Assembly: GCF_003002825.1 (NCBI RefSeq)
Contig: NZ_PVTE01000009.1
Span: 62,001-126,000 of the forward strand
Source: Spirosoma oryzae
GTDB taxonomy: Bacteria > Bacteroidota > Bacteroidia > Cytophagales > Spirosomataceae
DNA: 64,000 nt
Direction: 5' to 3'
Shown here: positions 46,022 to 60,908 of the stretch, one piece after another
How the letters are laid out: the number at the start of each line of letters is the position of its first letter
Position numbering within the stretch: position 1 is the first letter of the stretch
Notes under the pieces: model-generated
Told to the model about the DNA's origin: nothing
The model's database searches: none
The model's input: the letters and a program-made list of their open reading frames with translations, nothing else
Position numbers and translations under genes: made by a program

Positions 46022-46033
46022 CCTTATCAGTTG

Positions 46034-46078
46034 TGACCCCGAAGCGATTCGAACGCTTGACCGTCTGCTTAGAAGGCA
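46034..46078 (-). tRNA. Displaced 3' half of tRNA-Arg(UCU); attachment site
   Basis: On the minus strand this holds a tRNA 3' half: anticodon loop CTTCTAA (anticodon TCT), variable region CGGTC, a perfect five-pair T arm AAGCG-TTCGAAT-CGCTT, acceptor strand CGGGGTC and discriminator A at 46034. The anticodon stem pairs only in its three inner base pairs, and no proper D arm follows, so identity stops near 46078. This is the pattern left when an element integrates into a tRNA gene and displaces its 3' part. It is not a working tRNA. CCA is not encoded. Confidence 0.8.
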
Positions 46079-46244
46079 TATGGATTGCTCTACAAATGGT
46101 TTAAACGGGGTTTTTACGGGGTCAAACTAAGTGATTTTAGACTATAAAATTCTACCTATTCCGTACCCGGTTTACGCTCTGCCTGATTGACAACCGAGTT
46201 AAACCGGCTTAGTTTCGCTGCTGATCCACTACAGGGAGTATCTA

Positions 46245-47468
46245 ATGTTACAGCAGGTAAAATCGATTCTACAGAAGAAAAAACGGGCCACCGGACTTTA
46301 TCCGATCATGCTACGGATCCGGCCCGAGGGAAAGGAACAGCTTATTTCTACTGGCTTTACCAGTAAACTGACCGACTGGGATCAGAAGAAAGGCCGGCCG
46401 AAGAAGTCTCATCCGTTATTCGAGGAAATGATGCTCAAGCTGCCCGAACTGGAACTATCGGTAGCCAAGGGCTTAACCAACAGTCAGACGGGTCAATCCA
46501 GCCGGCAGATACTGGAAAAAGCCGTCAATAAGGCTTCAACGGGAAGCCAGACCGGGGTACTGGAATACACCCGGGAAACGATCAAGCGGCTCAAAGCCGA
46601 GAACCGGCATGGTTATGCCAATGCTTTCCGGGGAATGGAGCTGAGTCTGGAAAAGCAGTTAACCAAACGACAGACGGATTTCCAGTTTTCCCAGCTAAGC
46701 CCCCAGTTCATCCGGGCCTGGGAAAGCAGTCTCCGCCAGAAAGGATGTAAAGACACGACTATCTCAGCTTATTTCCGGGCTTTCCGGACGATGATCGGTT
46801 ACGCCCGGTTGGAAAAGCTGACCACGGTTAATCCCTTTTCCGGGGAGGATAAATTCAATATGAGTCCATACGGCAGTATCAAGACGGCCAAACGGGCTAT
46901 TGAACGGGACAAGATCGAGCTACTCCACCAACTGGAGCTGGAAGAAGATAGTCCGGAGTTTCACGCCCGTAACTTTTTTATGTTTTCCTTTTTCACCCGG
47001 GGCATGAACCTGATCGACATTGCCCGGCTGGAACCCAAGCAGAAAGTCGGGGACTATTTGGAATACCGCCGGGCCAAGACTCATCAGTGGCAACGGGTGT
47101 TTATGCTAGATCCGGCCAAGGATATCTGGAACTATTACCTGGAACGGATGAAGAAAGGTCAGCAAACGGTCTTCTGGTTTATCTTCTGGCCCAGGCATAA
47201 TACACCGGAACTACAACGAACCCGGATGCAGACGGTACTCAAACAGATCAACAAACTACTACGGAAACTGGCTAGTCAGGTTGGGATTGAAACCCACCTG
47301 ACGACCTACGTAGCCCGGCATTCGTTTGCTTCCAGTCTGAAACACCTGGGTATTCCCACGGATCAGATCTCGGAGCTACTAGGTCATGACTCGGTAGAAA
47401 CGACCCGGATTTACCTGGAGAGTTTCTCGGACGAGACCCTCAACGAAGCCGTTCGAAAGCTACTGTAA
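46245..47468 (+). CDS. Tyrosine-family site-specific recombinase (integrase)
   Basis: A 407-residue integrase of the Bacteroidota type. The N-terminal arm-binding domain (to about residue 100; LYPIMLRIRPEGK, LISTGFTSKLTDWD) is followed by a SAM-like core-binding domain (about 105-205) and the catalytic domain. Catalytic residues are Arg252 in FTRGMNLIDIARL, Arg358-His359 in YVARHSFAS (a Tyr replaces the usual first His of HxxR, common in this group), His in LLGHDS and nucleophile Tyr390 in TTRIYLESF. It should catalyse integration and excision at the adjacent attachment site. It converges with the array and overlaps its last gene by 9 bases. Confidence 0.95.
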   Translation: MLQQVKSILQKKKRATGLYPIMLRIRPEGKEQLISTGFTSKLTDWDQKKGRPKKSHPLFEEMMLKLPELELSVAKGLTNSQTGQSSRQILEKAVNKASTGSQTGVLEYTRETIKRLKAENRHGYANAFRGMELSLEKQLTKRQTDFQFSQLSPQFIRAWESSLRQKGCKDTTISAYFRAFRTMIGYARLEKLTTVNPFSGEDKFNMSPYGSIKTAKRAIERDKIELLHQLELEEDSPEFHARNFFMFSFFTRGMNLIDIARLEPKQKVGDYLEYRRAKTHQWQRVFMLDPAKDIWNYYLERMKKGQQTVFWFIFWPRHNTPELQRTRMQTVLKQINKLLRKLASQVGIETHLTTYVARHSFASSLKHLGIPTDQISELLGHDSVETTRIYLESFSDETLNEAVRKLL

Positions 47469-47744
47469 CTGAATAATCTTTTTGGCTTCATAAACCTTTA
47501 ACTGGAATGGATCTAGCAACTGAAAACATTTAAGATAAACCGAGATAGGTCTTTTACGATCGAACCGATCGTCTATATAATAAAGGTTTTCACACTTAAT
47601 CCAAGGACTTGAAACGTTGTTAATAGGACCTAATTCAACAATCCTGTAAATTTTACCGATTCGGTAATTAGAACCAAGTAAATCTGGATCTTGTCGATTA
47701 ATCAGTTGAACCAAATCTCCTATGTTTAGCTCTTTAAGATTCAT
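47460..47744 (-). CDS. Array paralogue 16 (promoter-distal)
   Basis: This 94-residue member is the last gene of the operon, next to the recombinase. Motifs: I8-G-D-L-V-Q-L14, YRIGKIYRIVELG at 27-39, and LLDPFQLKVYEAKK with DPFQ at 78-81. Trp of the first motif is replaced by Leu. The ELGP-x-x-x-x-SSW-x-KC stretch is shared with paralogue 14 (48026-48301), suggesting that they are close relatives. Its first 11 bases overlap the end of paralogue 15. Confidence 0.8.
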   Translation of the reverse strand: MNLKELNIGDLVQLINRQDPDLLGSNYRIGKIYRIVELGPINNVSSPWIKCENLYYIDDRFDRKRPISVYLKCFQLLDPFQLKVYEAKKIIQLQ

Positions 47745-48036
47745 GGTTTTTCAGTTTCTTTTTGGCTTCTAGTATTTTGGCTTGGAAAGGATCAATGGGT
47801 ATAAAACAGTTTTTTTCAATCCAAACCTGGTTACCATATCTCTTTGTTTTCGGATCATCATTGGAGTTTATTCCGGCTACTTTTATCCATTCTCCATTAG
47901 CCGAATCGTTTGAGGTATAAATTTGGGTTATTCTGTAATGAGCCAGCCGAGTCCAATTAGTATATAGTTGAAGCCATTGACTATCCGTATTGACTAGCTG
48001 AACCCAATCACCGGGTTTTAATCTGTTAACTTCCAT
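47734..48036 (-). CDS. Array paralogue 15
   Basis: A 100-residue member with GDWVQLVN at 9-16 and DPFQAKILEAKK from residue 82. The middle differs strongly from its neighbours: the usual Y-x-x-G-x-x-Y-x-V is rewritten as WTRLAHYRITQIY, and an insertion containing NSNDDPKTKRYGNQVW carries extra charge. ATG 48036 overlaps the stop of paralogue 14 by 11 bases. Confidence 0.78.
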   Translation of the reverse strand: MEVNRLKPGDWVQLVNTDSQWLQLYTNWTRLAHYRITQIYTSNDSANGEWIKVAGINSNDDPKTKRYGNQVWIEKNCFIPIDPFQAKILEAKKKLKNHES

Positions 48037-48301
48037 GTGTCAACTGGTTACGTGCCTGAAGAACTTTAACCTGAAATGGATCGAGTAATCTGAAATTCCG
48101 AAGATAAACAGCTGTCAATGTAACAGAAGGATTTGAATATGGGTCTATACAGTTAATCCAAGAGGACGGGATACCCATATAAGGTCCTAGTTTTGTTACC
48201 TGATAAAGTTTACCAATTTCATAACCAGTTCCATCCAAATAGTCATCCTCAGCTTTAACCAACTGGACCCAGTCACCTACTTTTAGATCTTCAGGATTCA
48301 T
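48026..48301 (-). CDS. Array paralogue 14
   Basis: A 91-residue protein that is close to the family consensus: GDWVQLVKAEDDYLDG at 9-24, YEIGKLYQVTKLGP at 27-40, and LLDPFQVKVLQARNQL, with DPFQ at 74-77. It makes a good query for searches of the family. It shares the KLGP-x-MG-x-P-x-SW region with paralogues 9 and 16. Confidence 0.82.
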   Translation of the reverse strand: MNPEDLKVGDWVQLVKAEDDYLDGTGYEIGKLYQVTKLGPYMGIPSSWINCIDPYSNPSVTLTAVYLRNFRLLDPFQVKVLQARNQLTHGS

Positions 48302-48584
48302 GATTTAATCGGTTACGGGCTTCTAAAACCTTGAGTTGAAACAGATCTATTAGCCGAAAACAATCCAGGTATATCTGAGCGAGGTTACCGTCTACGGTTG
48401 TGGAGATTGCCTTGGTAAATAGAAGACCCTCACAGCTAACAATTGGACGAGGAGCTGTTGGAGCATATACCCGAATCACTTTGTAAATCTTACCCATTTC
48501 ATAATTGGTGGCTTTCAGATCGTTATCATCATCGGTGATAAGCTGAATAAAATCACCAGGTTTCAAGGTTTGAGCATTTATCAT
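48291..48584 (-). CDS. Array paralogue 13
   Basis: A 97-residue member with PGDFIQLITDDDNDL from residue 9, YEMGKIYKVIRVY near 27-39 and a C-terminal DLFQLKVLEARNRL at 80. The Pro of DPFQ is Leu here, one of few departures at that position. Its C-terminal NHES also ends paralogue 15. Overlap with paralogue 12 is 32 bases, the longest inside the array. Confidence 0.8.
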   Translation of the reverse strand: MINAQTLKPGDFIQLITDDDNDLKATNYEMGKIYKVIRVYAPTAPRPIVSCEGLLFTKAISTTVDGNLAQIYLDCFRLIDLFQLKVLEARNRLNHES

Positions 48585-48852
48585 TAGCTTTCAGTTGATT
48601 ACGAGCTTCCAGAACTTTTACCTGGAACGGGTCCAGTTTTTCAAAACAGCAGTTATAAATCCTGGGGAATTTTCTATAGGTTTTCCAGGGATCAAGATCT
48701 TTTTTGAACGGTAGTCCGAGTACTTCAAACCAGTCAGGTTGAACTACTTTTCCAACCGTGTATATACGATTTAACTGGTAGTCAGTATCGAACAGTTGGT
48801 TATCCTCTTCCCGAACCAATCGTACTTTATCACCGGTCTTAAACTGGGTCAT
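48553..48852 (-). CDS. Array paralogue 12
   Basis: ATG 48852 gives 99 residues that begin TQFKTGDKVRLVREEDNQL, aligned with the family; an ATG 78 bases upstream would add an unrelated tail lying inside paralogue 11 and is rejected. YQLNRIYTVGKV replaces the Y-x-IG motif and DPFQVKVLEARNQL starts at 74. A 12-residue extension after the last helix (KANDKCSNLETW) is unique and comes from the long overlap with paralogue 13. Confidence 0.78.
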   Translation of the reverse strand: MTQFKTGDKVRLVREEDNQLFDTDYQLNRIYTVGKVVQPDWFEVLGLPFKKDLDPWKTYRKFPRIYNCCFEKLDPFQVKVLEARNQLKANDKCSNLETW

Positions 48853-49105
48853 GATTGGACTGGGTTTGTTGCTGACGAATTTGAAGTACTTTGGCTTGAA
48901 AGGGATCGAGCTTTCTGAAACACCGATCAAATAGTAAGATTGGACGTCTACTGTGTCTATAACTAATTCCGTCTACCTTGATAAATTCAGATTCAACTTC
49001 AACGACCCGATAAATCGTTCCGATTTGATAAGAATGAGCTTTATTTAACCAATTATCATCGTCATTGACTAGTTGAACCCAGTCACCAATGGCAAAGTCA
49101 CTCAT
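48839..49105 (-). CDS. Array paralogue 11
   Basis: An 88-residue member with IGDWVQLVNDDDNWLN at 6-21, YQIGTIYRVVEVE at 26-38 and KLDPFQAKVLQIRQQ (D67). The middle is short, with a basic patch YRHSRRP. Its own start overlaps the stop of paralogue 10 by 8 bases, in the form ATG-AG-TGA. Confidence 0.8.
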   Translation of the reverse strand: MSDFAIGDWVQLVNDDDNWLNKAHSYQIGTIYRVVEVESEFIKVDGISYRHSRRPILLFDRCFRKLDPFQAKVLQIRQQQTQSNHDPV

Positions 49106-49415
49106 AAGTCGGTTGGTTTAACTGGTGAAGAGCCTGGGCAACCCGGGCCTGAAACGGGTGAATCCGTTCAAAACAACGGCTATAAATCCGGGGATGGGTG
49201 TGATAACTGGTTACTCCGTCGAGCCATACAAGACCATCTAATTCGATGTAATGATTGAACCAGAAAAAGGTGGGTCCCGTAGCCCCTATTTCAGGGATTT
49301 TCTTTACCCGGTAAATCCGCCCGATTTGATAGTTGGTTTTTTCTAATTCCTCATCCGTTGTATCGACTAGTCTGACAAATTCACCCACCTGTAGATCGGT
49401 TAAATCATTGTACAT
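49098..49415 (-). CDS. Array paralogue 10
   Basis: The longest array member, 105 residues. GEFVRLVDTTDEELE replaces GDWV (G11-E12) and HPFQARVAQALHQL replaces DPFQ (H86), so both key acidic positions are changed. The middle has an aromatic insertion (GPTFFWFNHYIELDG). It may be a specialised or decaying copy, although the frame is intact. Confidence 0.75.
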   Translation of the reverse strand: MYNDLTDLQVGEFVRLVDTTDEELEKTNYQIGRIYRVKKIPEIGATGPTFFWFNHYIELDGLVWLDGVTSYHTHPRIYSRCFERIHPFQARVAQALHQLNQPTYE

Positions 49416-49683
49416 TGGTCAGGAGTTGATTACGGGCCTGGAAGACTTTAAGCTGGAATGGGTCTAGTTTTCGAAAGCAATGAACATAAATTCCAGGTTC
49501 ACCGGTACCATTACTAAAAACTGAAATCAGATCTTTACATCGGATAAAACTGTACGGTCTTCCCATTACCGGGCCCAATTCGGATACCTGGTAAACTTCA
49601 TTCAATCTACCTGTAGAACCGTTCAAATCTCGATCATCCATACTCACCAGTTGTACCCAATCCCCTACCTGAATATTATCCAT
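49405..49683 (-). CDS. Array paralogue 9
   Basis: A 92-residue consensus-like member: VGDWVQLVSMDDRDLNG at 6-22, LNEVYQVSELGPVMGRP near 27-43, and KLDPFQLKVFQARNQLL (D74). It is the first, in order of transcription, of the VQLV group and lies directly downstream of the WVVC group, so the boundary between sub-groups is at about 49,680. Confidence 0.82.
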   Translation of the reverse strand: MDNIQVGDWVQLVSMDDRDLNGSTGRLNEVYQVSELGPVMGRPYSFIRCKDLISVFSNGTGEPGIYVHCFRKLDPFQLKVFQARNQLLTNVQ

Positions 49684-49921
49684 TGGTTTTGGTAGTTAAG
49701 AGTTTGTCGCGGGTTAGTCTAACTTTCGTTTGAAACGGGTCCTCGAGCCGGAACCAGGATTTAGGTAACCAGACCGAACTGATTCCGTCGTCCCATTCGG
49801 CTTGGATTAACAAATTACTTGAGTTACTTATCCGGTAACTTAAACCAGTGGTAACTAATCCTTTAGTGTATAAAGCTGACTCACACACCACCCAATCACC
49901 GACTTCAAAGGGTCTATCCAT
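49676..49921 (-). CDS. Array paralogue 8
   Basis: The shortest member, 81 residues, of the WVVC sub-group: VGDWVVCES at 7-15, a G-L-S-YRISNS core, and RLEDPFQTKVRLTRDKLL (D61). The C-terminal TKVR helix differs from KVLEAR of the downstream genes. It overlaps paralogue 7 by 8 bases (ATGGATAG). Confidence 0.8.
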   Translation of the reverse strand: MDRPFEVGDWVVCESALYTKGLVTTGLSYRISNSSNLLIQAEWDDGISSVWLPKSWFRLEDPFQTKVRLTRDKLLTTKTNG

Positions 49922-50201
49922 TTTCCTGTAGTTGTTGAAGGGTTAACCTGACTTTCGTCTGGAATGGATCTTCCAGCTCAAAATTCTTTGACTCTAACCA
50001 AAAATGAGTATATCCATTACTTGGCTTTAAATCAGTTTCTGAATTAAGGCCCTTTACAGCTAAATGCCATTTAGAGTCTTTGTCTAATTCAGTTATCTGA
50101 TAAACATTTTTAAGTTGGTAACTAGGATAGTACTTTTTTAATATAAAATCATCGTCAGCCACCAGTATAACCCAGTCTCTTACCTTAAACCGATTATTCA
50201 T
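49914..50201 (-). CDS. Array paralogue 7
   Basis: A 95-residue member with VRDWVILVADDD (Gly of GDWV is Arg8), YQLKNVYQITELD, NGYTHFWLES and ELEDPFQTKVRLTLQQL (D78). The segment ILKKYYPSYQL recalls LRKYYPGRYQI in paralogue 3, and KGLNSETD recalls EGINSTKD there, so these two are probably duplicates separated by three genes. Confidence 0.8.
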   Translation of the reverse strand: MNNRFKVRDWVILVADDDFILKKYYPSYQLKNVYQITELDKDSKWHLAVKGLNSETDLKPSNGYTHFWLESKNFELEDPFQTKVRLTLQQLQENG

Positions 50202-50451
50202 TATACCTCTGGATTTGAGAAAGTGTGTTCCTTATTTTGGTTTGAAAGGGGTCTTCCAGTTGAAAACGGGAAGCGGCCAACCAAATCCCATCCCCGTTGT
50301 GATCTTTTTCCCAGGTTCCTTCTATAGAATCATCGATCACATCAGTTACCCGGTAGGCTTTACCTTGCTGAACCTGGGACTTTTTAAAATCCCCCGTGTA
50401 CATAAAATCTATACAGACTACCCAATCTCCTTTCTTAAACGGATTGTCCAT
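50194..50451 (-). CDS. Array paralogue 6
   Basis: An 85-residue WVVC-type member: KGDWVVCIDFMYTGDF at 7-22, QQGKAYRVTDV near 28-38, GIWLAASRFQLEDPFQTKIRNTL (D67). The W-L-x-x-S-x-F-x-L-EDPFQTK block is nearly that of paralogue 8, suggesting direct kinship. It overlaps paralogue 5 by 17 bases. Confidence 0.8.
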   Translation of the reverse strand: MDNPFKKGDWVVCIDFMYTGDFKKSQVQQGKAYRVTDVIDDSIEGTWEKDHNGDGIWLAASRFQLEDPFQTKIRNTLSQIQRYNE

Positions 50452-50698
50452 GCTGCTGACGGGTTTGGTAGATTTTGATTAGAAACGAATCAACGGGTTC
50501 AAAACAAGCAGCCAGTAACGGAATCCGGGTATTTTGAAATCCCGGTTTTGTGTTAGTTACCGTTAGATACTGGGACGAGACAAGAGTAGCTACCTTTTCG
50601 ATCTGATGATAGGAACCAATGCTAAGACCTGCCATTATAGCTAGTGAATCTGTCAGGGATACACAACGAACCCAGTCTCCGACTTGAAAATTAGCCAT
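50435..50698 (-). CDS. Array paralogue 5 (divergent)
   Basis: An 87-residue outlier: VGDWVRCVSLTDSLA at 6-20 is normal, but the C-terminal motif reads PVDSFLIKIYQTRQQ (D70), so DPFQ has become DSFL. The middle is rich in Thr, Val and Ser. It and paralogue 4 interrupt the WVVC sub-group. Confidence 0.75.
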   Translation of the reverse strand: MANFQVGDWVRCVSLTDSLAIMAGLSIGSYHQIEKVATLVSSQYLTVTNTKPGFQNTRIPLLAACFEPVDSFLIKIYQTRQQHGQSV

Positions 50699-50951
50699 GT
50701 TGGTTGGATGAATTTAACCGGTGAGCTTCGAGTACCTTGAGCTGAAACGGTGTGATTGGACGGAAATAACTGGTTGGGTGATAAAAGTTTTTCTCGGTAA
50801 ACTCATACCAGCTTTTTATACCAACAGTAATAGATACTACCTGGTAAATTTGACCAAGCTGGATGGAATCCTGTTTAAAGTAATCGTCATCCTCTTCTCC
50901 CTCTTCAGGTAAAGCTGTGCATAGTACCAGTTCTCCTTCTTCGGGCAACAT
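50691..50951 (-). CDS. Array paralogue 4 (divergent)
   Basis: An 86-residue outlier with EGELVLCTALPEEGEEDDD at 5-23: a long acidic run in place of the short acidic patch. IQLGQIYQVVSI keeps the second motif. The end is PITPFQLKVLEAHRL (T67), a KVLEA-type tail inside a WVVC-type neighbourhood, so it may be a mosaic. It is separated from paralogue 3 by 4 bases, the only gap in the array. Confidence 0.75.
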   Translation of the reverse strand: MLPEEGELVLCTALPEEGEEDDDYFKQDSIQLGQIYQVVSITVGIKSWYEFTEKNFYHPTSYFRPITPFQLKVLEAHRLNSSNQHG

Positions 50952-50955
50952 TAGA

Positions 50956-51237
50956 TTATTTATCAGTTTTCATAGTTTGTAAGGCTTCCCGAACCTTGGT
51001 TTGGAATGGATCCTCGATTCGAAAGTTGGAAGCTAATAGGTAATAATGACCGTGAGACAGGCTGGGTAATGGATCTTTGGTTGAATTGATACCCTCTACC
51101 AAAATGTAGTTTGCCGCTGGCTCTACATGACTGATTTTGTAGGCTTTACCAATCTGGTATCGTCCTGGGTAATATTTCCGCAGTACCTGATCCTTATCAT
51201 TCAGCAGGACTGCCCATTTTTCAACTGGATCAGTCAT
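50956..51237 (-). CDS. Array paralogue 3
   Basis: A 93-residue member that lacks the GD pair: PVEKWAVLLNDKD at 4-16, then YQIGKAYKISHVEP, GHYYLLASNFRIEDPFQTKVREAL (D76). It shares the KYYPG and GINSTKD regions with paralogue 7. It overlaps paralogue 2 by 4 bases (ATGA). Confidence 0.78.
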   Translation of the reverse strand: MTDPVEKWAVLLNDKDQVLRKYYPGRYQIGKAYKISHVEPAANYILVEGINSTKDPLPSLSHGHYYLLASNFRIEDPFQTKVREALQTMKTDK

Positions 51238-51500
51238 GGTTGATTGAGTTGATCCCGGACTTGTCGAACCTTTGTCTGAAACGGATCTTCCTTGATAAAA
51301 CAGTAGGAATAAATCCAGAAATCAAAGTCCATGTTAGGATGCTTTTTAAACTGTCTACAACGAACACACTGTGTATATCCTAATCCCCAATTAAGATCAG
51401 TTACCTGATATCGGTTTCCAATTTCAAGTCCTACGGCTTTTGAATACGGATCATCCAGATTGACACAAACAATCCAGTCACCTACTTCGAAATCAGTCAT
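51234..51500 (-). CDS. Array paralogue 2
   Basis: An 88-residue member: VGDWIVCVNLDDPYSK at 6-21, LEIGNRYQVTDLN near 26-38, CFIKEDPFQTKVRQVRDQL (D72). It has five cysteines (13, 45, 48, 67 region), including C-V-R-C in the middle, unusual in this family and a possible metal-binding pair. Confidence 0.8.
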   Translation of the reverse strand: MTDFEVGDWIVCVNLDDPYSKAVGLEIGNRYQVTDLNWGLGYTQCVRCRQFKKHPNMDFDFWIYSYCFIKEDPFQTKVRQVRDQLNQP

Positions 51501-51756
51501 GGTTCAGTAGTTTATTCCGGGCTAGGCGGACTTTGGTTTTGAAGGGATCTTCCGCTTCAAATAGGAAAGAATTATGAAACGTTTTATGACCTATTATAAG
51601 TCCTTTACATCGAATAAATGTACCAAATAAAGTAACTTCCTCTACTTGAAATACCTGCCCTAACAGATCCGTTATATCGGGAACTTCCTGATTTTCGGGA
51701 TTAGTTAAAACAACCCAATCTCCTTTTTTCAGTTGCAAGGCTTCTTTTTTTCTCAT
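51493..51756 (-). CDS. Array paralogue 1 (promoter-proximal)
   Basis: An 87-residue member with a longer basic N-terminus (RKKEALQLKKGDWVVLTN, GD at 12-13), LLGQVFQVEEV near 31-41 and AEDPFKTKVRLARNKLL (D70, DPFK). Its first 56 bases overlap the end of the unrelated membrane protein gene upstream, so the array has been joined to that gene without a spacer. Confidence 0.78.
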   Translation of the reverse strand: MRKKEALQLKKGDWVVLTNPENQEVPDITDLLGQVFQVEEVTLFGTFIRCKGLIIGHKTFHNSFLFEAEDPFKTKVRLARNKLLNHD

Positions 51757-52045
51757 CGAGTATTTCCCTTCCTTGTTTATCCAGTTTTTCCCATAACCCC
51801 CAGACCAGATCGTTCTGATACACCGTTCTGGTCATTAAGCCAATCCGGTTCAGCTTTTCGTAGCAGGCCAGAATCTCGGGAATTGTCCCGGCTTTCCAGA
51901 TTTGATTCTGTAGAGCCAGCCAGTCGTTGACAAACTGATCTTTCTGGGCTCTACGGGGCTTTAGGACAACCGATCTGTACCAGCCGTATCCCAAAGCCCC
52001 CAGTAGCAAACAATTGATTACTGCCCACTTAAAAAGCTCGTCCAT
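51701..52045 (-). CDS. Small membrane-anchored hypothetical protein
   Basis: A 114-residue protein with one N-terminal hydrophobic helix (WAVINCLLLGALGYGWY, residues 7-23), then a basic stretch (KPRRAQK) and a helical charged domain, probably facing the cytosol. It is not related to the array. It overlaps its upstream neighbour by 28 bases and the first array gene by 56 bases. No family recognised. Confidence 0.65.
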   Translation of the reverse strand: MDELFKWAVINCLLLGALGYGWYRSVVLKPRRAQKDQFVNDWLALQNQIWKAGTIPEILACYEKLNRIGLMTRTVYQNDLVWGLWEKLDKQGREILDEKKRSLATEKRRLGCFN

Positions 52046-52482
52046 GCGGATGGTCCGGTTAGTTTCTGTTTATTCTCTTCCTGGCTTTTAGTCAACAGGA
52101 ATGATTCAACCTGCTCTCGGAACGTAAAGGGTAGATCACTCACGTGCTGCTCCAGGTATTGTTCCATCAGATTCACAACCTCAGCCTGGATATAATACGG
52201 TTTGGTCAGTTGCTGAGCCCGGTCATCATTAGTGAAGATACCCAGATAGGAATCCCGGTGATGGCCGTATACGACTTCCAAATCGTCCAGGTAAAACGGA
52301 CTGCTCTGCATTTCGGAAGCTCCACTAACCCAGACATAAGCCCGACCATCGTCGTAGATATGTTTCTCCCGGATGAACAGGTAAAATTCCAGTTTCATCA
52401 TGTACTCTTCCAGCAGACTACTGGGTTGAAAACCTTCCCGGAGCCGGACAATTACATTTTTGGCTACCTCGTCTTTTCTCAT
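52018..52482 (-). CDS. Hypothetical protein (154 aa)
   Basis: A mixed alpha/beta protein with many aromatic residues (LEFYLFIREKHIYDDGRAYVWVSG) and a helical C-terminal third (YYIQAEVVNLMEQYLEQHV). I see no catalytic motif. The start overlaps the end of the next upstream gene by 4 bases, so it belongs to the long operon that runs into the array. Confidence 0.65.
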   Translation of the reverse strand: MRKDEVAKNVIVRLREGFQPSSLLEEYMMKLEFYLFIREKHIYDDGRAYVWVSGASEMQSSPFYLDDLEVVYGHHRDSYLGIFTNDDRAQQLTKPYYIQAEVVNLMEQYLEQHVSDLPFTFREQVESFLLTKSQEENKQKLTGPSAWTSFLSGQ

Positions 52483-52925
52483 GATACCTTGATTTTGTCA
52501 AACTTGATTCCATACCCACCCCAGCCATGTTTTGGCTCGATAGACTTCTCTCCCATCACGGCTTCCCAGATTTCTTCAGACGTAAATTCTACAGCAGCTT
52601 CTTCCAGTAACCAATCAATCAGATGTCTTTTACTTAATGAATATCGGATCAGGTCATAATTGGTATCGTCCCGACCCAGATAGGTGTTGGTAATTAAAAC
52701 CGAGTAGACGTAGGTTTCCTCGTCTGATTGAATACGAGTAAGTTGGTAACCATCCGCTTCCAAGGCTTTCAACATCCGATAAGCCAGGTAGGTAGCATTT
52801 TCGTTATCCGTTGGAAACCAGTCTACGTAAGCTTCTGTCATCAAATCAAGAGCCTGGTTAATTTCATCCCGTTTGTCAACCGAGACGGTTTTATCGGCCC
52901 AATCGGGCAGTGGAAATAGATTCAT
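52479..52925 (-). CDS. Hypothetical protein (148 aa)
   Basis: ATG 52925 is preferred because it forms an ATGA overlap with the upstream stop; the longer frame runs back through another gene. The product is acidic, begins NLFPLPDWADKTVSV and has a helical centre (EINQALDLMTEAYVDWF) with a glycine-rich end (KHGWGGYGIKFDKI). A similar length and composition to its downstream neighbour is noted, without a shared motif. Function unknown. Confidence 0.62.
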   Translation of the reverse strand: MNLFPLPDWADKTVSVDKRDEINQALDLMTEAYVDWFPTDNENATYLAYRMLKALEADGYQLTRIQSDEETYVYSVLITNTYLGRDDTNYDLIRYSLSKRHLIDWLLEEAAVEFTSEEIWEAVMGEKSIEPKHGWGGYGIKFDKIKVS

Positions 52926-53236
52926 AGTTTGCTTAGTTGTTCCTGTAGATAAGCCCGGTACCAGGTATGGCAGAACTCCACGGCCTGATCCAGTTTTTTG
53001 AATTCTTTGGTTGGAATATCTTTGATCCAGGCAGAAACCGATTGGACATCCCATTGAGATGATTTTGTTCGAGGACATACCCACCAATGTTTCTTTCGGA
53101 TTGTTTTTATTCCAGTATCCCTTGGAACATTATCGTGGCCTTTCAGAATATCAAAGGGCATAAAACCCTCCCAGACTACTTCTTGGTAATCATCGGAGTC
53201 CGGGTAATTATCCAGCCGTTTCAGCGTGTAATTCAT
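52922..53236 (-). CDS. Hypothetical protein (104 aa)
   Basis: A Trp-rich protein with a basic centre (TIRKKHWWVCPRTKSSQWD) and a helical end (FKKLDQAVEFCHTWYRAYLQ). It overlaps both neighbours by 4 bases (ATGA in each case). I do not recognise it; the aromatic and basic content would suit nucleic acid binding, but this is only a remark on composition. Confidence 0.62.
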   Translation of the reverse strand: MNYTLKRLDNYPDSDDYQEVVWEGFMPFDILKGHDNVPRDTGIKTIRKKHWWVCPRTKSSQWDVQSVSAWIKDIPTKEFKKLDQAVEFCHTWYRAYLQEQLSKL

Positions 53237-53523
53237 GGGTTGTCAAGTTTAGCTTTAGTCTGAAAGATCTTCCACAGGAATTCAAGTGAGTCTGGTATAG
53301 CGTGTAAGTGATGATCTTTTAACCAGTAGGAAAATTGAATCAACGAAGAATCTTCAGATTGAAGAATCAGTTTACGTCGGCTATCTACTTTGTAATCATG
53401 TTTGACACAATCAGTCCAGTACGAAGCCAAGTTACCCGGAAAGTCATCATAGTACAGATACCAGGTAGTGGGTTTTTCTACGGTTGTTTCAGTTTGGTTT
53501 CCCGGATCAGAAATATCTTCCAT
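53233..53523 (-). CDS. FLWKxF-family paralogue C
   Basis: A 96-residue member of a second duplicated family. The shared C-terminal block is YWLKDHH-x-x-AIPDSLEFLWKIFQTKAKL; the N-terminal part has WYLYYDD, matching YLYYDAD of paralogue A (53692-53937). It overlaps paralogue B by 46 bases. The family is not known to me. Confidence 0.68.
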   Translation of the reverse strand: MEDISDPGNQTETTVEKPTTWYLYYDDFPGNLASYWTDCVKHDYKVDSRRKLILQSEDSSLIQFSYWLKDHHLHAIPDSLEFLWKIFQTKAKLDNP

Positions 53524-53711
53524 AGAAAATCGATGTTAGCAGGTGGTCCGTTTCTATATCTAACTCGTAGGTAGTCCCGAAATAACTTCAGATTTTGTTT
53601 GTCTGAACTCTTTAGTAATACCGGACTTGCAATCCGACTAGCACTGTTGAAAACAGCGTAACCGTTAAACCAAGTCAAACTGTAAAAAAGACTATATTCC
53701 GGAGTTTCCAT
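53478..53711 (-). CDS. FLWKxF-family paralogue B
   Basis: A 77-residue member with the C-terminal block FRDYLRVRYRNGPPANIDFLWKIF, broken here as RDYLRVRY and NIDFLWKIFLIR. Its N-terminal half (LFYSLTWFNGYAVF) differs from the other two. It is the most divergent of the three and the most likely to be decaying, although the frame is open. Confidence 0.6.
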   Translation of the reverse strand: METPEYSLFYSLTWFNGYAVFNSASRIASPVLLKSSDKQNLKLFRDYLRVRYRNGPPANIDFLWKIFLIRETKLKQP

Positions 53712-53937
53712 CGGTTTCCAACTGTTGTTTGGTCAGGAATACTTTCCACAGAAACTCAATCGAATCGGGTACGGCTTGAAAGTGATGTTCGTTCAGGTAA
53801 TGCTTGAATTTCCAGATATTTAGATGATCATCACTTACCAGAATTGATTCCAGAATGTAATAACCCTGTGTACCAATCCAGTACCGGTCAACATCTGCAT
53901 CAGCATCGTAGTAGAGATACCTGAGTTTATCTCTCAT
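53692..53937 (-). CDS. FLWKxF-family paralogue A
   Basis: An 81-residue member: RYLYYDADADVDRYWIGTQG at the start and KHYLNEHHFQAVPDSIEFLW, then KVFLTKQQL, at the end. It aligns well with paralogue C, including HH-x-x-A(V/I)PDS. The start overlaps the HAD-protein stop by 4 bases. Confidence 0.68.
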   Translation of the reverse strand: MRDKLRYLYYDADADVDRYWIGTQGYYILESILVSDDHLNIWKFKHYLNEHHFQAVPDSIEFLWKVFLTKQQLETDGNSGI

Positions 53938-54422
53938 AATCGATTTAGAATTCGACCGGCCCGATAAACATGATTATGGGTCAAACCGGCATACGGATCG
54001 ATCTGAATAAATCGATCGGCCTGCCAGAGTAGAAAGTCAGAATCATCATCGAAAATCACGTAGTCAACCGGTTCAATACCGTACTGAGTATTGGTTCTGA
54101 GCCACATAAGGACCTCTACTCCCCGAACCCGGTGATCGGTCAACGGTGTACAGCCAATAACCCGTTCGTCATAGGCAAACCCGGAATCTCTCAGAACCTG
54201 TAAACACCGTTCTTTTCCGCTGGCCCGCCAGGTAGAACTGATAACCACTTGAAGCTCGGGAAACTGACTCAGTAGCAGATTAAGGTTATCAATGGTCCGC
54301 TGGTCAAAATCAGGTTTATCAGCTGCTACGGCTTCACCAGCTTGTATCCTGGTGTACCAGTCATGATTGAACAGTTCGTGGTTTAGGACTCCGTCAAAAT
54401 CAAGGAACAGGTATTGCTTCAT
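53934..54422 (-). CDS. HAD-superfamily phosphatase-like protein (HAD_SAK_2 type)
   Basis: A 162-residue HAD protein. Motif I is FLDFDGVLN with nucleophile Asp8 and acid/base Asp10, motif II is ISSTWR near residues 81-86, and motif IV is FDDDSDF near 124-130. The length, the FDGVLN start and the lack of a large cap fit the HAD domain of Swiss-army-knife RNA repair-type proteins, found in phages and mobile elements. A 5' or 3' end-healing phosphatase is plausible; the substrate is not shown. Confidence 0.85.
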   Translation of the reverse strand: MKQYLFLDFDGVLNHELFNHDWYTRIQAGEAVAADKPDFDQRTIDNLNLLLSQFPELQVVISSTWRASGKERCLQVLRDSGFAYDERVIGCTPLTDHRVRGVEVLMWLRTNTQYGIEPVDYVIFDDDSDFLLWQADRFIQIDPYAGLTHNHVYRAGRILNRL

Positions 54423-54465
54423 CAGTTATATCTGGACTGGTTTTGGGTTGTTTCTTCGTCTACCA

Positions 54466-54708
54466 TTAATGGCTATTTGCTTTTTTAAGAGCCTGTTTTT
54501 TGTTCCGAGCCATAATCGTTTTACCCCGGATAACAAATGGGTGAAGCTGGTTCGAATTATCATTTTTGTACATATCCGATTGATCCGGAGTCATCGGTGG
54601 CGGGCTATACGGATTACCATTTGATCCAGTATAGGTTCCGTGGGTTACTGAACTCATAGCGGCCATAGCTCCCATCATAGCCATCATTCCTTTTAAACGG
54701 GAAGTCAT
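54466..54708 (-). CDS. Small hypothetical protein with Met-rich start
   Basis: An 80-residue protein: a Met/Ala-rich amphipathic start (MMAMMGAMAAMSS), a Pro/Asn/Gly-rich linker, and a C-terminal HPFVIRGKTIMARNKKQALKK block that may be a small nucleic-acid-binding or docking segment. It is the first gene after the terminator at 54735 and could head the long operon. Family unknown. Confidence 0.6.
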   Translation of the reverse strand: MTSRLKGMMAMMGAMAAMSSVTHGTYTGSNGNPYSPPPMTPDQSDMYKNDNSNQLHPFVIRGKTIMARNKKQALKKANSH

Positions 54709-54734
54709 AAATCAATTAGGTTTGGTTTAAACGT

Positions 54735-54764
54735 AAAACGAGCCGGTCAGCATAACCAACCGGC
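54735..54764 (-). terminator. Terminator after the 162-residue hypothetical gene
   Basis: On the minus strand the stem GCCGGT/ACCGGC (54742-54747, 54759-54764) with an 11-base loop is followed by TCGTTTT. It separates the 54792 gene from the long operon. Confidence 0.65.
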
Positions 54765-54791
54765 CCGAAAGTCAGATAAAGCAAATCGGTA

Positions 54792-55280
54792 TTAAGCCGC
54801 CAGCAGCATAGGTTCCAGACCCAGACTAACCAGGTCAACTTCGGTTACCTTGTCCAGTGAATCCGTCCAGTAACCACTGTCGATGAGTCCCTGGGCCAGT
54901 TCCCGGTTCAGGTTTTGGGAAAAGCCCGGATTGGCAATCAGGTAGATCGTTTTCATCGGAGCCAGATCCTCGGATTTCTGGGTAAGCTGATCCCGCAGCA
55001 GTTTCAGAGCGATAGCCTTGTTGCGGGCATTCTGGGTCCGCTCTTCCATATCAGTTACTTTCTTCAGCTGCTCATCCAGTAGCTCCTGAACAACACTGGC
55101 ATTATCCAGACAACTCTCGAAGGTCTGGGTAGTCAGATCGATTTCCATTCGAACGGTTTTACCCTTGAGTTGATCCGGCAACAGATCCAGGGCTTCCCGG
55201 CGGGCAAATAAACTACGGTTGAACTCCAGAACGGTTACGGCTTCATTCTGTTTTACGCTGATATACTGGTCAGAATTCAT
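54792..55280 (-). CDS. Hypothetical coiled-coil protein (162 aa)
   Basis: The N-terminus YISVKQNEAVTVLEFNRSLF is followed by a helical, heptad-like region (residues 70-110, VVQELLDEQLKKVTDMEERT) and a C-terminal segment with FSQNLNRELAQGLIDSG. Codon use and GC content look higher than in the array genes. It has its own terminator, so it forms a separate transcription unit. No function recognised. Confidence 0.65.
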   Translation of the reverse strand: MNSDQYISVKQNEAVTVLEFNRSLFARREALDLLPDQLKGKTVRMEIDLTTQTFESCLDNASVVQELLDEQLKKVTDMEERTQNARNKAIALKLLRDQLTQKSEDLAPMKTIYLIANPGFSQNLNRELAQGLIDSGYWTDSLDKVTEVDLVSLGLEPMLLAA

Positions 55281-55390
55281 TGGTTAGGTAGAATTTGGTT
55301 GATTGGGAATAAAAACTGAGCGAATGGTCTACAAAGAAAATCGGGTTCGATGAAACTACCAACTGGTACAGTTACATCGATTAACAAATA

Positions 55391-55409
55391 GTTTACATTG
55401 TTAGTAAAC
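55391..55409. promoter_or_regulatory. Possible operator upstream of the 54792 gene
   Basis: A 19-base inverted repeat, GTTTAC-N7-GTAAAC, lies 110 bases before the gene start in an otherwise empty A+T-rich stretch. It has the size of a repressor site; no matching second copy was found nearby. Confidence 0.35.
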
Positions 55410-55516
55410 GGTTTTTGATACCCCATTTAATCCCCTGACCGATCCGACTTTTAATCCGTACTTCCCCCTACCCCAGGGGTACCCCGGCCGGTTGTAAACC
55501 AGCGGTTCGTTTACCG

Positions 55517-55603
55517 TTACTTCGGCAGACTATTCTGAAAACACATCGCCTGCTGGTAGTCCTCGAAGGTATACGGGATACCATCAACAAGAATCTGGTA
55601 CAT
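55517..55603 (-). CDS. Possible 28-residue microprotein
   Basis: ATG 55603 to TAA 55517 encodes 28 residues, starting MYQILVDGIPYTFEDYQQA. It begins with a strand-like 'YQILVDG' that recalls the 22-residue frame at 62917-62985 (SYVLINGVVV). It starts 12 bases after the membrane-protein stop upstream, which supports co-transcription. Evidence is limited to the open frame, position and the resemblance. Confidence 0.35.
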   Translation of the reverse strand: MYQILVDGIPYTFEDYQQAMCFQNSLPK

Positions 55604-55615
55604 AGCTAGCTGGTT

Positions 55616-55852
55616 TTAGTTGAGTTGATAGGTTTTGACTTTTCGGATGGACAGCCACTCGGCTTCTTTCTGGGTAAGTTCCCGTTGCCGGTCCCGGTAG
55701 TATAGGTTTACCTGGGACATGGCCAGCAGGGTCAGGATGATACTGGTTACTCCGCCACAGGCCAAAAGCGATCCGTCGAGCCGGGTATAGCCAATGAGAG
55801 CCGATTCACCCATAAGTAAAGCCACAAAGAAAATAAGCCAGGAAGTTGCCAT
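55616..55852 (-). CDS. Small two-span membrane protein
   Basis: A 78-residue protein with two hydrophobic helices (WLIFFVALLMGESALIGY and GGVTSIILTLLAMSQ) and a charged C-terminal tail (YYRDRQRELTQKEAEW). It has the size and form of a phage holin or small toxin-like membrane protein, but no lysis genes are near. Function unknown. Confidence 0.6.
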   Translation of the reverse strand: MATSWLIFFVALLMGESALIGYTRLDGSLLACGGVTSIILTLLAMSQVNLYYRDRQRELTQKEAEWLSIRKVKTYQLN

Positions 55853-55967
55853 TGGATAAACAGTTGATGGGGTTACCGAGTTGATTACGTAGCTTTACAC
55901 TGTGATGCTGCCGGAAGAGCCGGTCAGGAATACCCCGTGGGTTATCCTGGTCTATCACGAGACTAAA

Positions 55968-56006
55968 AAGCCGGATCTGTTGTCCTTTAAGGATCAGATC
56001 CGGCTT
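55968..56006 (-). terminator. Strong terminator after the YGK-family genes
   Basis: A 12-base perfect stem (AAGCCGGATCTG at 55968-55979, complement at 55995-56006) is followed on the minus strand by a T tract. It ends the operon of the three YGK-family genes. Confidence 0.85.
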
Positions 56007-56030
56007 CACTGTTTAAAAGGTATTTAGGGA

Positions 56031-56381
56031 CTACAGGTCGATGTACTCAATGACTGAACCCGTTGATTCCGGAGTTTTGGTATCAAAGAGACGAATCAAT
56101 TCAGCCTTTCCATACCTGATGGCTTCTTCGGCGGACTTAAACCAGGTATCCGAATCCTGGTATCGGTAGTTTGCCGGACCATTTACATACCCCCAGTCAC
56201 TGGTCAGGGTTTCTTCCAGTAGGTATTGATCTTTTTTAACGAATCGATCGTCTATAAGGCTACCTGATTTTATCGGCAGATAGATCCGACACTGGTAATT
56301 CAGTTCCGGTAATTTAGCTGTATCCAGCAGCGCATGAACAAACGGCTTCAATCCAGTAAATTGATTGTCAACAGGTGGCAT
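56031..56381 (-). CDS. YGK-family paralogue C
   Basis: A 116-residue member of a third duplicated family. The C-terminal signature reads FKSAEEAIRYGKAELIRLFDTK, then SVIEYIDL at the end; the N-terminal half has KPFVHALLDTAKLPEL, and the middle an LLEETLTSDWGYV stretch. It aligns over its full length with 56393-56716 and with the C-terminal half of the fusion protein at 56729. The shared order (KPF, LPE, LL-E, W-G, EA-YGK, VIE) suggests a small alpha/beta domain of unknown role. Confidence 0.72.
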   Translation of the reverse strand: MPPVDNQFTGLKPFVHALLDTAKLPELNYQCRIYLPIKSGSLIDDRFVKKDQYLLEETLTSDWGYVNGPANYRYQDSDTWFKSAEEAIRYGKAELIRLFDTKTPESTGSVIEYIDL

Positions 56382-56392
56382 AACGGGTTGGT

Positions 56393-56716
56393 TTACAGGT
56401 CTACGTATTCGATTACCGATGATTGCTGGGCTGGCTGGGGTGTACCGAAGATGGTCAGGAGTTGTTGTTTACCGTACTCGATGGCTTCCTGGGGTGTGTC
56501 GAAGAGTTGATTAACATCAACACGGTTTCTATACTCTTTATTAGTGAAAGTCCCCCAGACATTATACAAGCTTTCTCCCAGTAGTTTAGTGTTGGGTTTC
56601 TGAAATCTCTCCTCTATCTGACTAATTGAATTTACGGGTAAACCGATTACAGGTATATACTTAATTTCGGGAAGTATTTCCCGGCTGATTTGATAGGTAA
56701 CAAATGGCTTTTTCAT
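56393..56716 (-). CDS. YGK-family paralogue B
   Basis: A 107-residue protein starting KKPFVTYQISREILPEIKY, with LLGESLYNVWGTF in the middle and FDTPQEAIEYGKQQLLTIFG, ending SSVIEYVDL. Its N-terminus corresponds to residue 77 of the upstream fusion protein, where an internal Met is kept. It lies 12 bases after that gene and 11 bases before paralogue C. Confidence 0.72.
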   Translation of the reverse strand: MKKPFVTYQISREILPEIKYIPVIGLPVNSISQIEERFQKPNTKLLGESLYNVWGTFTNKEYRNRVDVNQLFDTPQEAIEYGKQQLLTIFGTPQPAQQSSVIEYVDL

Positions 56717-56728
56717 AACTATCCCGGA

Positions 56729-57280
56729 TTACAAGTTGACAAATTCGATGACGTTGGTGGATTCAGGCTCCGGTTTACCGAACACTCGTTGTAGCTCGGC
56801 TTTTCCGTAGGCCTTGGCTTCTTCGGGGGTATCAAAGATTGCTCTGCTCATTTTGTACCGGTAGGTATCTTTCTGATTCCTTCCACCCCAACGACTACCC
56901 AATCCTTCACTCAATAACGTTTCAACTGAACGGTATTGCTGGACAATCATATTACCGCCGGGTTCAGCTGGAATAAAAATACCAGCCTTGTACTTGACGG
57001 CTTCTGGGAGCTGATCATCATCGATTAAAGCCGAAACAAAGGGTTTGTTCATGGGTTTAACGAGTTTGAAACGGGTGTAACGGAAATTCCAGGTATTTAT
57101 GTCTGTATCACCAATGAGCGTGATGAAATCATTGGCTTTGTTGGAATAGCCATTGTTAGTAATTTGGTCTACCTGATACTCTTTTCCTTCGACCAACTTA
57201 GTTAACGGCTCGGAACAATTGGATGGAGATTTAGCATCAATACAGATGACCTTGTCACCCGGTTTGAACGGATTAGCCAT
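56729..57280 (-). CDS. Fusion of array-type domain and YGK-family domain
   Basis: ATG 57280 gives 183 residues. Residues 1-76 begin ANPFKPGDKVICIDAKS and contain LVEGKEYQVDQI and RYTRFKLVKP, matching the front and middle of array paralogues such as 50194-50451 (NPFKKGDWVVCID). Residues 77-183, beginning at an internal Met in MNKPFVSALIDDD, are a full YGK-family copy, with TPEEAKAYGKAEL and NVIEFVNL at the end. The DPFQ helix is missing; the second domain takes its place. This looks like a read-through fusion of two formerly adjacent genes. The further upstream ATG is rejected, since its extension shows no homology. Confidence 0.8.
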   Translation of the reverse strand: MANPFKPGDKVICIDAKSPSNCSEPLTKLVEGKEYQVDQITNNGYSNKANDFITLIGDTDINTWNFRYTRFKLVKPMNKPFVSALIDDDQLPEAVKYKAGIFIPAEPGGNMIVQQYRSVETLLSEGLGSRWGGRNQKDTYRYKMSRAIFDTPEEAKAYGKAELQRVFGKPEPESTNVIEFVNL

Positions 57281-57305
57281 GGTGTAACGGGGATTTAGTT
57301 GTGGA

Positions 57306-57533
57306 TTACTGTTTAGCTGGGAAGAAGCCGCTACGTCCGTACCGGTTCTTGAGTACTCGTTCACCCTCAACTGTTCGGTAGTAGATTTTCAGAGCCCGGT
57401 ATTTCAGGTTATTACCCAGAACAAAGTCAGAGAAGGTTAAGCTGGCAGCCGGCTTATCAAGTGAGGTATTCAGTAGATCAGTGGTTTCCAGCTCCAGATT
57501 GAAGTTTAACTCATTGATTGGGTGTTGAATCAT
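57306..57533 (-). CDS. Small hypothetical protein (75 aa)
   Basis: ATG 57533 is preferred to the one 33 bases upstream, though both are possible. The protein has an acidic first half (NELNFNLELETTDLLN) and a basic C-terminus (YYRTVEGERVLKNRYGRSGFF) that could bind nucleic acid. It lies between the fusion gene and the 57573 gene in the same direction. Not recognised. Confidence 0.55.
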   Translation of the reverse strand: MIQHPINELNFNLELETTDLLNTSLDKPAASLTFSDFVLGNNLKYRALKIYYRTVEGERVLKNRYGRSGFFPAKQ

Positions 57534-57572
57534 ACGGATTGTTTGGTGGATTGAATAATGGATCAAACAGGC

Positions 57573-57980
57573 TTATTCATCGGTTACAGCCAGTCCTTTT
57601 GGAATCAGGTTACCGACGTCGTAGTACAACGACTGAAGCCAGAGTACGGCTTCGGTAGAGTCACTCAGGTACTCAATTCGTCCAGGGTCCTGATTAAAGT
57701 AGTCAATGATGAAATCGTCCGTATGAGCTGATTCTGGATGAGTCAACCGGAACAGCTCGATAACGTGGCTGATTCGGATCTGGGAGAGTGGTCGAAGAAC
57801 CGGCTTGACAAAGTTGGGATGTACCGTAGTGGTATAATCCGTTTTGCCTGGTTCAGTCACCCGGTACGTAATGTGATGACGGGTTAACTCGGTGATAGTG
57901 GATCGTTCATTAGTCACGCCCATCCCGTTGATCTCGATGGGTTGACCGATGTGGTAATAGGTAATGGGCAGGTAATCCAT
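57573..57980 (-). CDS. Phage-type 'IGQ...LRPL' hypothetical protein
   Basis: A 135-residue protein with YYHIGQPIEINGMG near residues 8-21 and KPVLRPLSQIRISHVIELF near 59-77. This order, a glycine-containing entry strand and then (R/K)P-I/L-x-L before a helix, resembles a small family common in Bacteroidota prophages. The last third is acidic and helical. No activity is known to me. Confidence 0.6.
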   Translation of the reverse strand: MDYLPITYYHIGQPIEINGMGVTNERSTITELTRHHITYRVTEPGKTDYTTTVHPNFVKPVLRPLSQIRISHVIELFRLTHPESAHTDDFIIDYFNQDPGRIEYLSDSTEAVLWLQSLYYDVGNLIPKGLAVTDE

Positions 57981-57990
57981 GGGTTACGGA

Positions 57991-58839
57991 TTAGTTGTGG
58001 TACCCTCTTGAAGGCATATTCACTCGTATCGTTTCGTCTTTGATAATGGGTTTCTTCCCATTTTTCCGGTAATAATCAGTTTTACTCATGAACGTTGAAA
58101 AATCAAGGTTTTCCAATGCCCATTCGACATAGTTTGGATCAATCTTTTTTATTTCAGCTAAGCTTTTCATCCGATGTTTACCAAATGGAATAACTACACT
58201 ATCCTTTACGGTTAAAAGATTGATTCTGTGTAAGTTATCGGGTTGATCTGGTTTACAGAATGTAGCTTCTTTTCGGTTATACGTTTTTAATCGAAGCCTA
58301 CCAATCTGATATTGTTGCCCCCATTCCCCATGTATGAATTCACTCTTCATCGTATCTAGTTTGTACTGAAGCCAAGTGTATAATTTTGAGTAATCTCTGG
58401 TTACAATGTCAAACGTATTTGTTGAAGGATCATAGTGGGTGTAACTCAATGGAGACTTGTTTACACCGTTTAACAGGTAGCTTCCTTTATCTTCAATATG
58501 GATATAGTCTCCAATTATCTGATACAAGTCTCCACCACGAGGTTTGTACTGAATGTTCAGAATGGGTTTGAAATATTCGATTCGTTTTCGTTCGACAGCC
58601 GTCAAGTCTGATAAAAACACTTCTTCATACCGGTACCGGGTAAAGTGTTTATTGGTCGAATGAGCCCCTATCCTTCCCTGTAGATTGGTTGTCTGTCCAA
58701 TGTAGATCAGAATATTATCGTGATACAGATAATAGATGTATCCAATTTCCTTGTGGTTTCTCTGAGGAGCATTGTACCAGTCTGAATAGACAATAAACGG
58801 AGCTTCCGGAGTAGTTTCCGGGGTTTGATCAGCCGTCAT
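57991..58839 (-). CDS. GIY-YIG nuclease with ExoX-like C-terminal segment
   Basis: A 282-residue protein. The GIY-YIG domain covers about residues 30-115: YIYYLYHDN followed by LIYIGQTTNLQGRIGAHS, with Tyr and Arg catalytic residues, and a Glu in ERKRIEYFKPILNIQY as metal ligand. A middle domain of about 100 residues is not recognised. Residues 215-245 (VIPFGKHRMKSLAEIKKIDP, NYVEWAL) match the small C-terminal module of exodeoxyribonuclease X and DUF3820-type proteins. A DNA repair, restriction or recombination role for the element is likely; whether it attacks foreign DNA is open. Confidence 0.82.
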   Translation of the reverse strand: MTADQTPETTPEAPFIVYSDWYNAPQRNHKEIGYIYYLYHDNILIYIGQTTNLQGRIGAHSTNKHFTRYRYEEVFLSDLTAVERKRIEYFKPILNIQYKPRGGDLYQIIGDYIHIEDKGSYLLNGVNKSPLSYTHYDPSTNTFDIVTRDYSKLYTWLQYKLDTMKSEFIHGEWGQQYQIGRLRLKTYNRKEATFCKPDQPDNLHRINLLTVKDSVVIPFGKHRMKSLAEIKKIDPNYVEWALENLDFSTFMSKTDYYRKNGKKPIIKDETIRVNMPSRGYHN

Positions 58840-58905
58840 GAAGGTTGGTGTATTCGGTACGAGTGAGGAAGGAGTCCCGTAGTATCAGGAGTCCTATTAA
58901 TACAC

Positions 58906-58913
58906 CAAAGATA
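58906..58913 (-). promoter_or_regulatory. Possible -7 box of the GIY-YIG transcript
   Basis: On the minus strand TATCTTTG matches TAnnTTTG, 67 bases before the nuclease start. No TTG lies at the right distance, so only this half is supported. On the plus strand a TATCTTTA lies at 58956, next to the RepL-like start. Confidence 0.4.
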
Positions 58914-58967
58914 CACTATTACTGATTAACTGTAGTATTAAAATGGGGATTGTCGTATCTTTAATCT

Positions 58968-60389: not shown

Positions 60390-60438
60390 GAGTGATTCGA
60401 TTGGTTTACCGGTGTAACCGGGTATTGGTTGTCTGGAT

Positions 60439-60896: not shown

Positions 60897-60908
60897 GGTT
60901 GGTAGAGC

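Follow-up and report, generated by a model that had tools for sequence, protein, structure and literature searches.

The window analysed here is a 64,000-nucleotide stretch of Spirosoma oryzae contig NZ_PVTE01000009.1 (C9), and it contains a tandem array of sixteen small genes from one protein family. This array (array 1) spans 47460-51756 and is composed of 16 minus-strand open reading frames (ORFs), which encode paralogues of 81-105 amino acids (aa) with pairwise identities of 13-46%. Searching the same genome with a profile of the 16 proteins found 13 further paralogues (array 2) at positions 10560-13850 of another contig, C19. The two arrays lie in one prophage and together have 29 members (16 + 13). 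Adjacent genes of array 1 overlap by 4 to 32 bases, and a single 4-base gap separates 50691-50951 from 50956-51237. The genes of array 1, all on the minus strand, are as follows.

47460-47744, minus strand: array gene 1, 94 aa, SH3-like domain plus helix; transcribed last, convergent with the integrase gene
47734-48036, minus strand: array gene 2, 100 aa
48026-48301, minus strand: array gene 3, 91 aa
48291-48584, minus strand: array gene 4, 97 aa
48553-48852, minus strand: array gene 5, 99 aa from the ATG at 48852, or 125 aa from a TTG at 48930
48839-49105, minus strand: array gene 6, 88 aa; used for the structure prediction
49098-49415, minus strand: array gene 7, 105 aa
49405-49683, minus strand: array gene 8, 92 aa
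49676-49921, minus strand: array gene 9, 81 aa, EDPFQTKVR subfamily
49914-50201, minus strand: array gene 10, 95 aa, EDPFQTKVR subfamily
50194-50451, minus strand: array gene 11, 85 aa, EDPFQTKIR subfamily
50435-50698, minus strand: array gene 12, 87 aa
50691-50951, minus strand: array gene 13, 86 aa; net charge -8, the most acidic member
50956-51237, minus strand: array gene 14, 93 aa, EDPFQTKVR subfamily
51234-51500, minus strand: array gene 15, 88 aa, EDPFQTKVR subfamily
51493-51756, minus strand: array gene 16, 87 aa; transcribed first, overlaps the upstream gene at 51701-52045

A preliminary description of the window had reported sixteen genes of one unknown family with shared motifs. All 16 ORFs are present, and in an all-against-all BLASTP of the prophage ORFs nearly all array genes fall into one cluster at E<0.01. 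The profile of the 16 matches each member at E<=3.1e-16; as it includes its own targets, the BLASTP result is the independent evidence for the family. Given the cluster and the profile matches, the relatedness within array 1 is far beyond chance. The motifs were borne out by counts over the 29 members. At the N-terminal end, Gly7 and Asp8 are each found in 26 of 29 and Trp9 in 21; in the center, Tyr32 is found in 25 and Val or Ile at position 34 in 28. The helix motif is kept most strictly, with Phe69 in 29/29, Lys72 in 28/29, Pro68 in 25/29, Gln70 in 24/29, and Asp67 in 23/29. The loops have high entropy in the 29-member alignment and the C-terminal helix has low entropy. Degenerate-pattern searches were ruled out, as no stretch of the alignment is conserved enough. 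The earlier description of the array is thus right, but it covers about half of the system, the other 13 paralogues being on C19. Array 2 is interrupted between two of its members by an unrelated ORF of 115 aa (C19:11269-11616) without a Pfam match.

Predicted fold of the array proteins

The structure of array gene 6 was predicted with AlphaFold2 from the 29-row alignment. The model has a predicted local distance difference test (pLDDT) score of 92.5 and shows an SH3-like barrel followed by a C-terminal helix that starts from the DPFQ motif. The barrel is composed of five strands (residues 9-12, 31-38, 41-49, 55-59, and 63-66), and the helix spans residues 68-83. Judged by this model, the family members are predicted to be five-stranded SH3-like barrel proteins. 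We then compared the model with known structures by using Foldseek. The best PDB matches are KOW-type ribosomal proteins eL21 and bL19, NusG, and SH3 domains, the best E-value being 0.019. Among viral models, many small uncharacterised phage proteins were matched with a best E-value of 0.005. Neither search gave a match below E=0.001. For eL21, bL19, and NusG, the likeness is one of KOW/SH3 fold (E 0.019-0.13, TM-score about 0.5) with no sequence match, and the sequence match to plastid uS17 covers only a 12-residue GDWV stretch.

Sequence family searches of the array proteins against Pfam, NCBIfam, PHROG, PADLOC, and PDB gave isolated sub-threshold matches only; in the first four, no housekeeping or structural family was matched by profile, in line with the unknown family proposed in the preliminary description. 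In PADLOC-DB, which holds mostly defence proteins, the one isolated match is BrxHI (E=0.0044, 1 of 29 members). BrxHI, E1_FCCH, and Prok_Ub each touch one of the 29 members, and these matches were taken as chance rather than as the identity of the family. Small SH3-like proteins are a known kind in phages. Those in BFVD, such as the 'SH3-like domain protein' of Myoviridae sp. ctQve5, occur in many unrelated phages and resemble the array proteins in predicted fold and size, but have no detectable sequence family match to them; no repertoire of the 29-member scale was seen among them, their copy number per genome not having been surveyed. A similar short signature, GDxVxC...YxV, is present in the SH3-like extension of phage dATP/dGTP diphosphohydrolase and DUF3310 proteins, with weak profile and tblastn similarity. 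That domain is fused to another module, whereas the array domain stands alone with its own helix.

The top PDB neighbours raise the question of nucleic acid. KOW-like barrels of this kind could act on RNA, DNA, or the transcription or translation machinery as regulators that tune phage or host expression, and the invariant F-x-x-K helix could contact phosphate. In addition, a small SH3-like prophage protein at C19:565-837 has a sub-threshold match to the SH3 domain of the CarS antirepressor (E=0.0028). The members, however, have isoelectric points of 4.6-9.6 and net charges of -8 to +6, with many of them acidic, and only a single lysine is near-invariant. The structural matches to KOW-type proteins reach E 0.019 at best, and it would be strange for one regulator to be present in 29 copies. 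We therefore regard such regulators as possible but unlikely. DNA mimicry by all members was ruled out by the same range of net charges.

Evolution of the two arrays

In both arrays, genes tend to be slightly less alike the farther apart they lie (permutation p 0.030 and 0.026), a pattern that old in-place duplication would leave. The two arrays intermix in the tree. Their separate expansion is not favoured, as monophyly of array 2 was rejected (approximately unbiased test, p-AU 0.01), with long branches present. A subfamily ending in E(D/H)PFxTK(V/I)R lies upstream in both arrays (rank test, p 0.0075 for array 1 and 0.10 for array 2). The same order of two subfamilies in both arrays suggests that an ancestral array was duplicated as a whole.

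The strong diversifying selection proposed in the preliminary description was not demonstrated. Synonymous sites are saturated (median pS 0.77, pN 0.52, for proportions of synonymous and nonsynonymous differences), so the ratio of nonsynonymous to synonymous rates (dN/dS), and with it diversifying selection, is unreadable here, and purifying constraint acts on the conserved positions. In the helix, codon identity at identical residues is 0.445 versus 0.452 expected from codon usage. As the amino acids are fixed while codon identity is at chance level, the helix is kept by selection on the protein. The same agreement with codon usage in the conserved ends speaks against recent homogenisation of gene ends by recombination in the prophage, which was rejected. 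The array could also be mostly neutral, with duplications piled up in a tolerant small-gene region and few copies that matter. Such regions turn over rapidly in related phages, and of the gene order only a weak signal remains. Against this, all 29 reading frames are intact despite saturated synonymous sites, and almost every copy retains the key residues with codon choice randomised, which makes neutral accumulation highly improbable.

Carrier prophage and related phages

The carrier is a tailed-phage prophage of about 136 kb that is related to crAss-like phages and integrated in a tRNA-Arg(TCT) gene. Its features in the window, apart from array 1, are as follows.

46030-64000, strand not applicable: left 18 kb of the prophage, which runs to the end of C9 (228862; window-based 166862) and resumes at C19:1-14929
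46030-46078, minus strand: attL, 3' part of the tRNA-Arg(TCT) gene
46245-47468, plus strand: tyrosine integrase with Arm-DNA-bind_5, Phage_int_SAM_5, and Phage_integrase domains
56729-57370, minus strand: fused SH3-like copy, 213 aa, with a copy of the array SH3-like domain in its N-terminal part and a second module fused to it

On C19, phage genes occupy the start, and attR follows at 14.9 kb (C19:14881-14929). The 49 bases of attR are identical to attL, form the 3' end of an intact tRNA-Arg(TCT) gene, and separate the phage genes from chromosomal genes. An ORF runs off the start of C19, and a same-strand ORF runs into the end of C9; the two contigs may hence be close neighbours, their join being unproven. 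A short hairpin-like GGCTTTAGCC repeat is present on both contig ends and may have broken the assembly there. The C9 part of the prophage has a copy in IMG/VR (IMGVR_UViG_2728369482_000003). The portal protein is 37% identical to that of Leptolyngbya phage Lbo-JY46, 28% to csAssE-Sib, 26% to Cellulophaga phi17:2, and about 22% to gut crAss-like phages. The terminase and capsid also match crAss-like phages, with PHROG matches to TerL and head proteins. The prophage encodes a family A DNA polymerase; the epsilon crAss-like group is described as lacking one (PMC7886860). For that group, only two incomplete prophages were reported (PMC11054128). The prophage described here is nearly complete and integrated with both att ends defined; among crAss-like phages, there are few records of lysogeny in which the att sites are known.

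The structural block of the prophage is on the plus strand; the replication genes and most of the small genes are on the minus strand. Since array 2 lies just inside attR and array 1 beside attL and the integrase gene, the arrays flank attP in the phage. The order in the excised phage would be array 1, integrase, attP, an HNH/AP2 endonuclease-like gene, and array 2; the endonuclease-like gene was recognised by eye only and has no Pfam match. This location bears on two further explanations. In the first, the integrated prophage would express the set to shield the lysogen from related or other phages. The host tRNA-Arg gene is upstream of array 2 on the same strand, so transcription could read through from it into array 2 in the lysogen. 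Terminator-like hairpins nevertheless lie between the two on that strand (C19 14654-14641 and 14581-14565), where such hairpins are about as frequent as in shuffled sequences. Array 1 is inside a longer minus-strand gene block, and inspection of the sequences by eye revealed no obvious signal peptides or membrane segments. Lysogenic immunity or superinfection exclusion is thus quite unlikely. In the second, the paralogues would be subunits of one assembly, such as a shell, a nucleoid, or a virion-associated lattice, with the helix as interface. The fixed helix beside a variable barrel and the location of the genes in one block would suit a hetero-oligomer, and SH3-like proteins are able to oligomerise, as reported for DfrB (PMC9835603). 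The arrays, however, lie apart from the structural genes on the plus strand, an assembly of 29 divergent subunits would be extraordinary, and the family was not found in related phage records. We consider such an assembly very unlikely.

Across 222 genomes of the host family and 395 of the phylum, the family was found in this genome only, with distant SH3-like matches in two others, one of which is fused to a dGTPase-type domain. In related phage records, many of which are fragments and three of which are complete or near-complete genomes read whole, the family was unmatched at E<0.01. Searches of viral contigs and phages with single members returned the IMG/VR copy of the prophage itself or matches with E>=0.03. 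A comparable arrangement is found in other crAss-like phages. In the relative G106, five SH3-like genes stand in tandem at 96911-98357, and their C-terminal helix motif is a different one; the G106 model (pLDDT 83.8) has a similar order of strands and helix and some structural neighbours in common with the array protein. The five-gene array of IMGVR_UViG_3300045836_000189 and IMGVR_UViG_3300044684_000278 resembles the prophage arrays in its tandem overlapping small genes, N-terminal GDxV, and C-terminal helix. It differs in its helix motif (IEDLxxALDxxIERM) and in having five genes versus 29, and it adjoins a uracil-DNA-glycosylase-like gene (named by eye). With the A2 profile, a search of a small ORF set picked up one of its genes at E=0.0038; homology is borderline. 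Between the close relatives G105 and G106, gene 3 is 48% identical while its array neighbours are 93-99% identical. The replaced tract takes in gene 3 entirely together with the last part of gene 2, and the adjoining DNA is nearly identical; one breakpoint is within the 3' part of gene 2 and the other at the junction of genes 3 and 4 (L158:4650-6300 versus L159:4650-6234). Whole-cassette replacement was thus observed in the similar array of another phage only, not in the 29-member family. As G105 and G106 are mosaic in many places, the swap reflects turnover of such arrays without making the arrays special.

Several other small genes of the prophage were noticed. The second module of the fused SH3-like copy also stands alone at 56031-56381 and 56393-56716; the three ORFs thus hold three tandem copies of this module, which ends in VIE(Y/F)VxL. 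Another family of small paralogues has seven ORFs at E<0.01, partly in tandem, with a common C-terminal LxFLWKxFxxKxxL; these are at 53233-53523, 53478-53711, and 53692-53937 in the window, and farther along C9 at window-based positions 148242, 149336, 158794, and 159029. Directly downstream of array 2, C19:10100-10666 encodes a cpYpsA-type SLOG protein (Pfam E=3.9e-28), and C19:1967-2455 encodes a protein that is macro-domain-like by eye, without a Pfam match. These two proteins could bear on nucleotide-signal defence.

A putative repertoire of binding proteins

We favour, with moderate confidence, the reading that the arrays are a diversified phage repertoire of small SH3-like binding proteins directed at host or defence targets and grown by in-place duplication. 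It is supported by the phage context (terminase, portal, capsid, integrase, and att sites in tRNA-Arg), by the 29 members in two arrays of one prophage, and by the SH3-like model together with the wide charge range, variable loops, and fixed helix. The fixed amino acids of the helix at chance codon identity, the slightly greater likeness of neighbours, and the intermixing of the arrays in the tree support it as well, as do the cassette replacement between G105 and G106 and the precedent of Nip. Nip is a counter-defence protein of Bacillus phage phi3T with two predicted SH3-like domains, encoded in an early operon with Gad1 (PMC11984713). Likened here by description only, it is a phage early protein that inhibits a defence NADase; it differs in being a single-gene product of 279 aa with an HU-like domain beside its two SH3-like domains (PMC11984713).

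Under this reading, each gene would give a five-stranded barrel with a variable middle and loops, followed by the near-invariant DPFQxKV helix. The genes, overlapping head to tail in the minus-strand block of small and replication genes, are probably translated in a coupled manner from one message, which may be expressed early. Each protein would most likely bind a different host or defence protein and block or redirect it. The common F-x-x-K helix would have one joint job, either capping the barrel or docking to a single partner. Ancient in-place duplication may have enlarged the set, and both arrays, now flanking attP, would have retained the order of the two subfamilies.

Some observations weigh against this reading. 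Nucleic-acid binding would also be compatible with a KOW-like fold that bears a conserved lysine, the structural matches are weak by E-value (0.005 viral, 0.019 PDB), and saturation of synonymous sites puts positive selection beyond the test used here. G105 and G106 are mosaic along the whole accessory region. The members match no known anti-defence family in Pfam or NCBIfam, a library dedicated to anti-defence not having been searched, and the function is one that we infer. The role in immunity, anti-defence, or recognition suggested in the preliminary description fits the prophage, the SH3-like fold, and the variable loops beside a fixed helix, and it keeps the same conditional standing.

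A variant in which the 29 proteins are adaptors is unlikely. All members would offer the F-x-x-K helix to a shared partner, which might be a protease, nuclease, or polymerase of the phage or the host, and each variable barrel would recruit a different host protein. If true, the phage would redirect a single machine by means of a library of exchangeable baits.

The SH3-like fold is common in phages, and it is the depth of the repertoire that is unusual; 'rare in bacteria', as the preliminary description put it, is better worded as unusual in a phage. Our literature search found no apt precedent for tandem paralogue arrays in phages. Within the scope of our searches and as far as we are aware, it is new for a single prophage to hold a repertoire of 29 members in two arrays with a helix motif that is strictly conserved. 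Small-gene regions of phages are rich in uncharacterised small proteins, and what these act on is difficult to predict. As 29 natural variants of one compact fold, fixed in one part and varied in the rest, the set is a ready-made library for host and defence screening.

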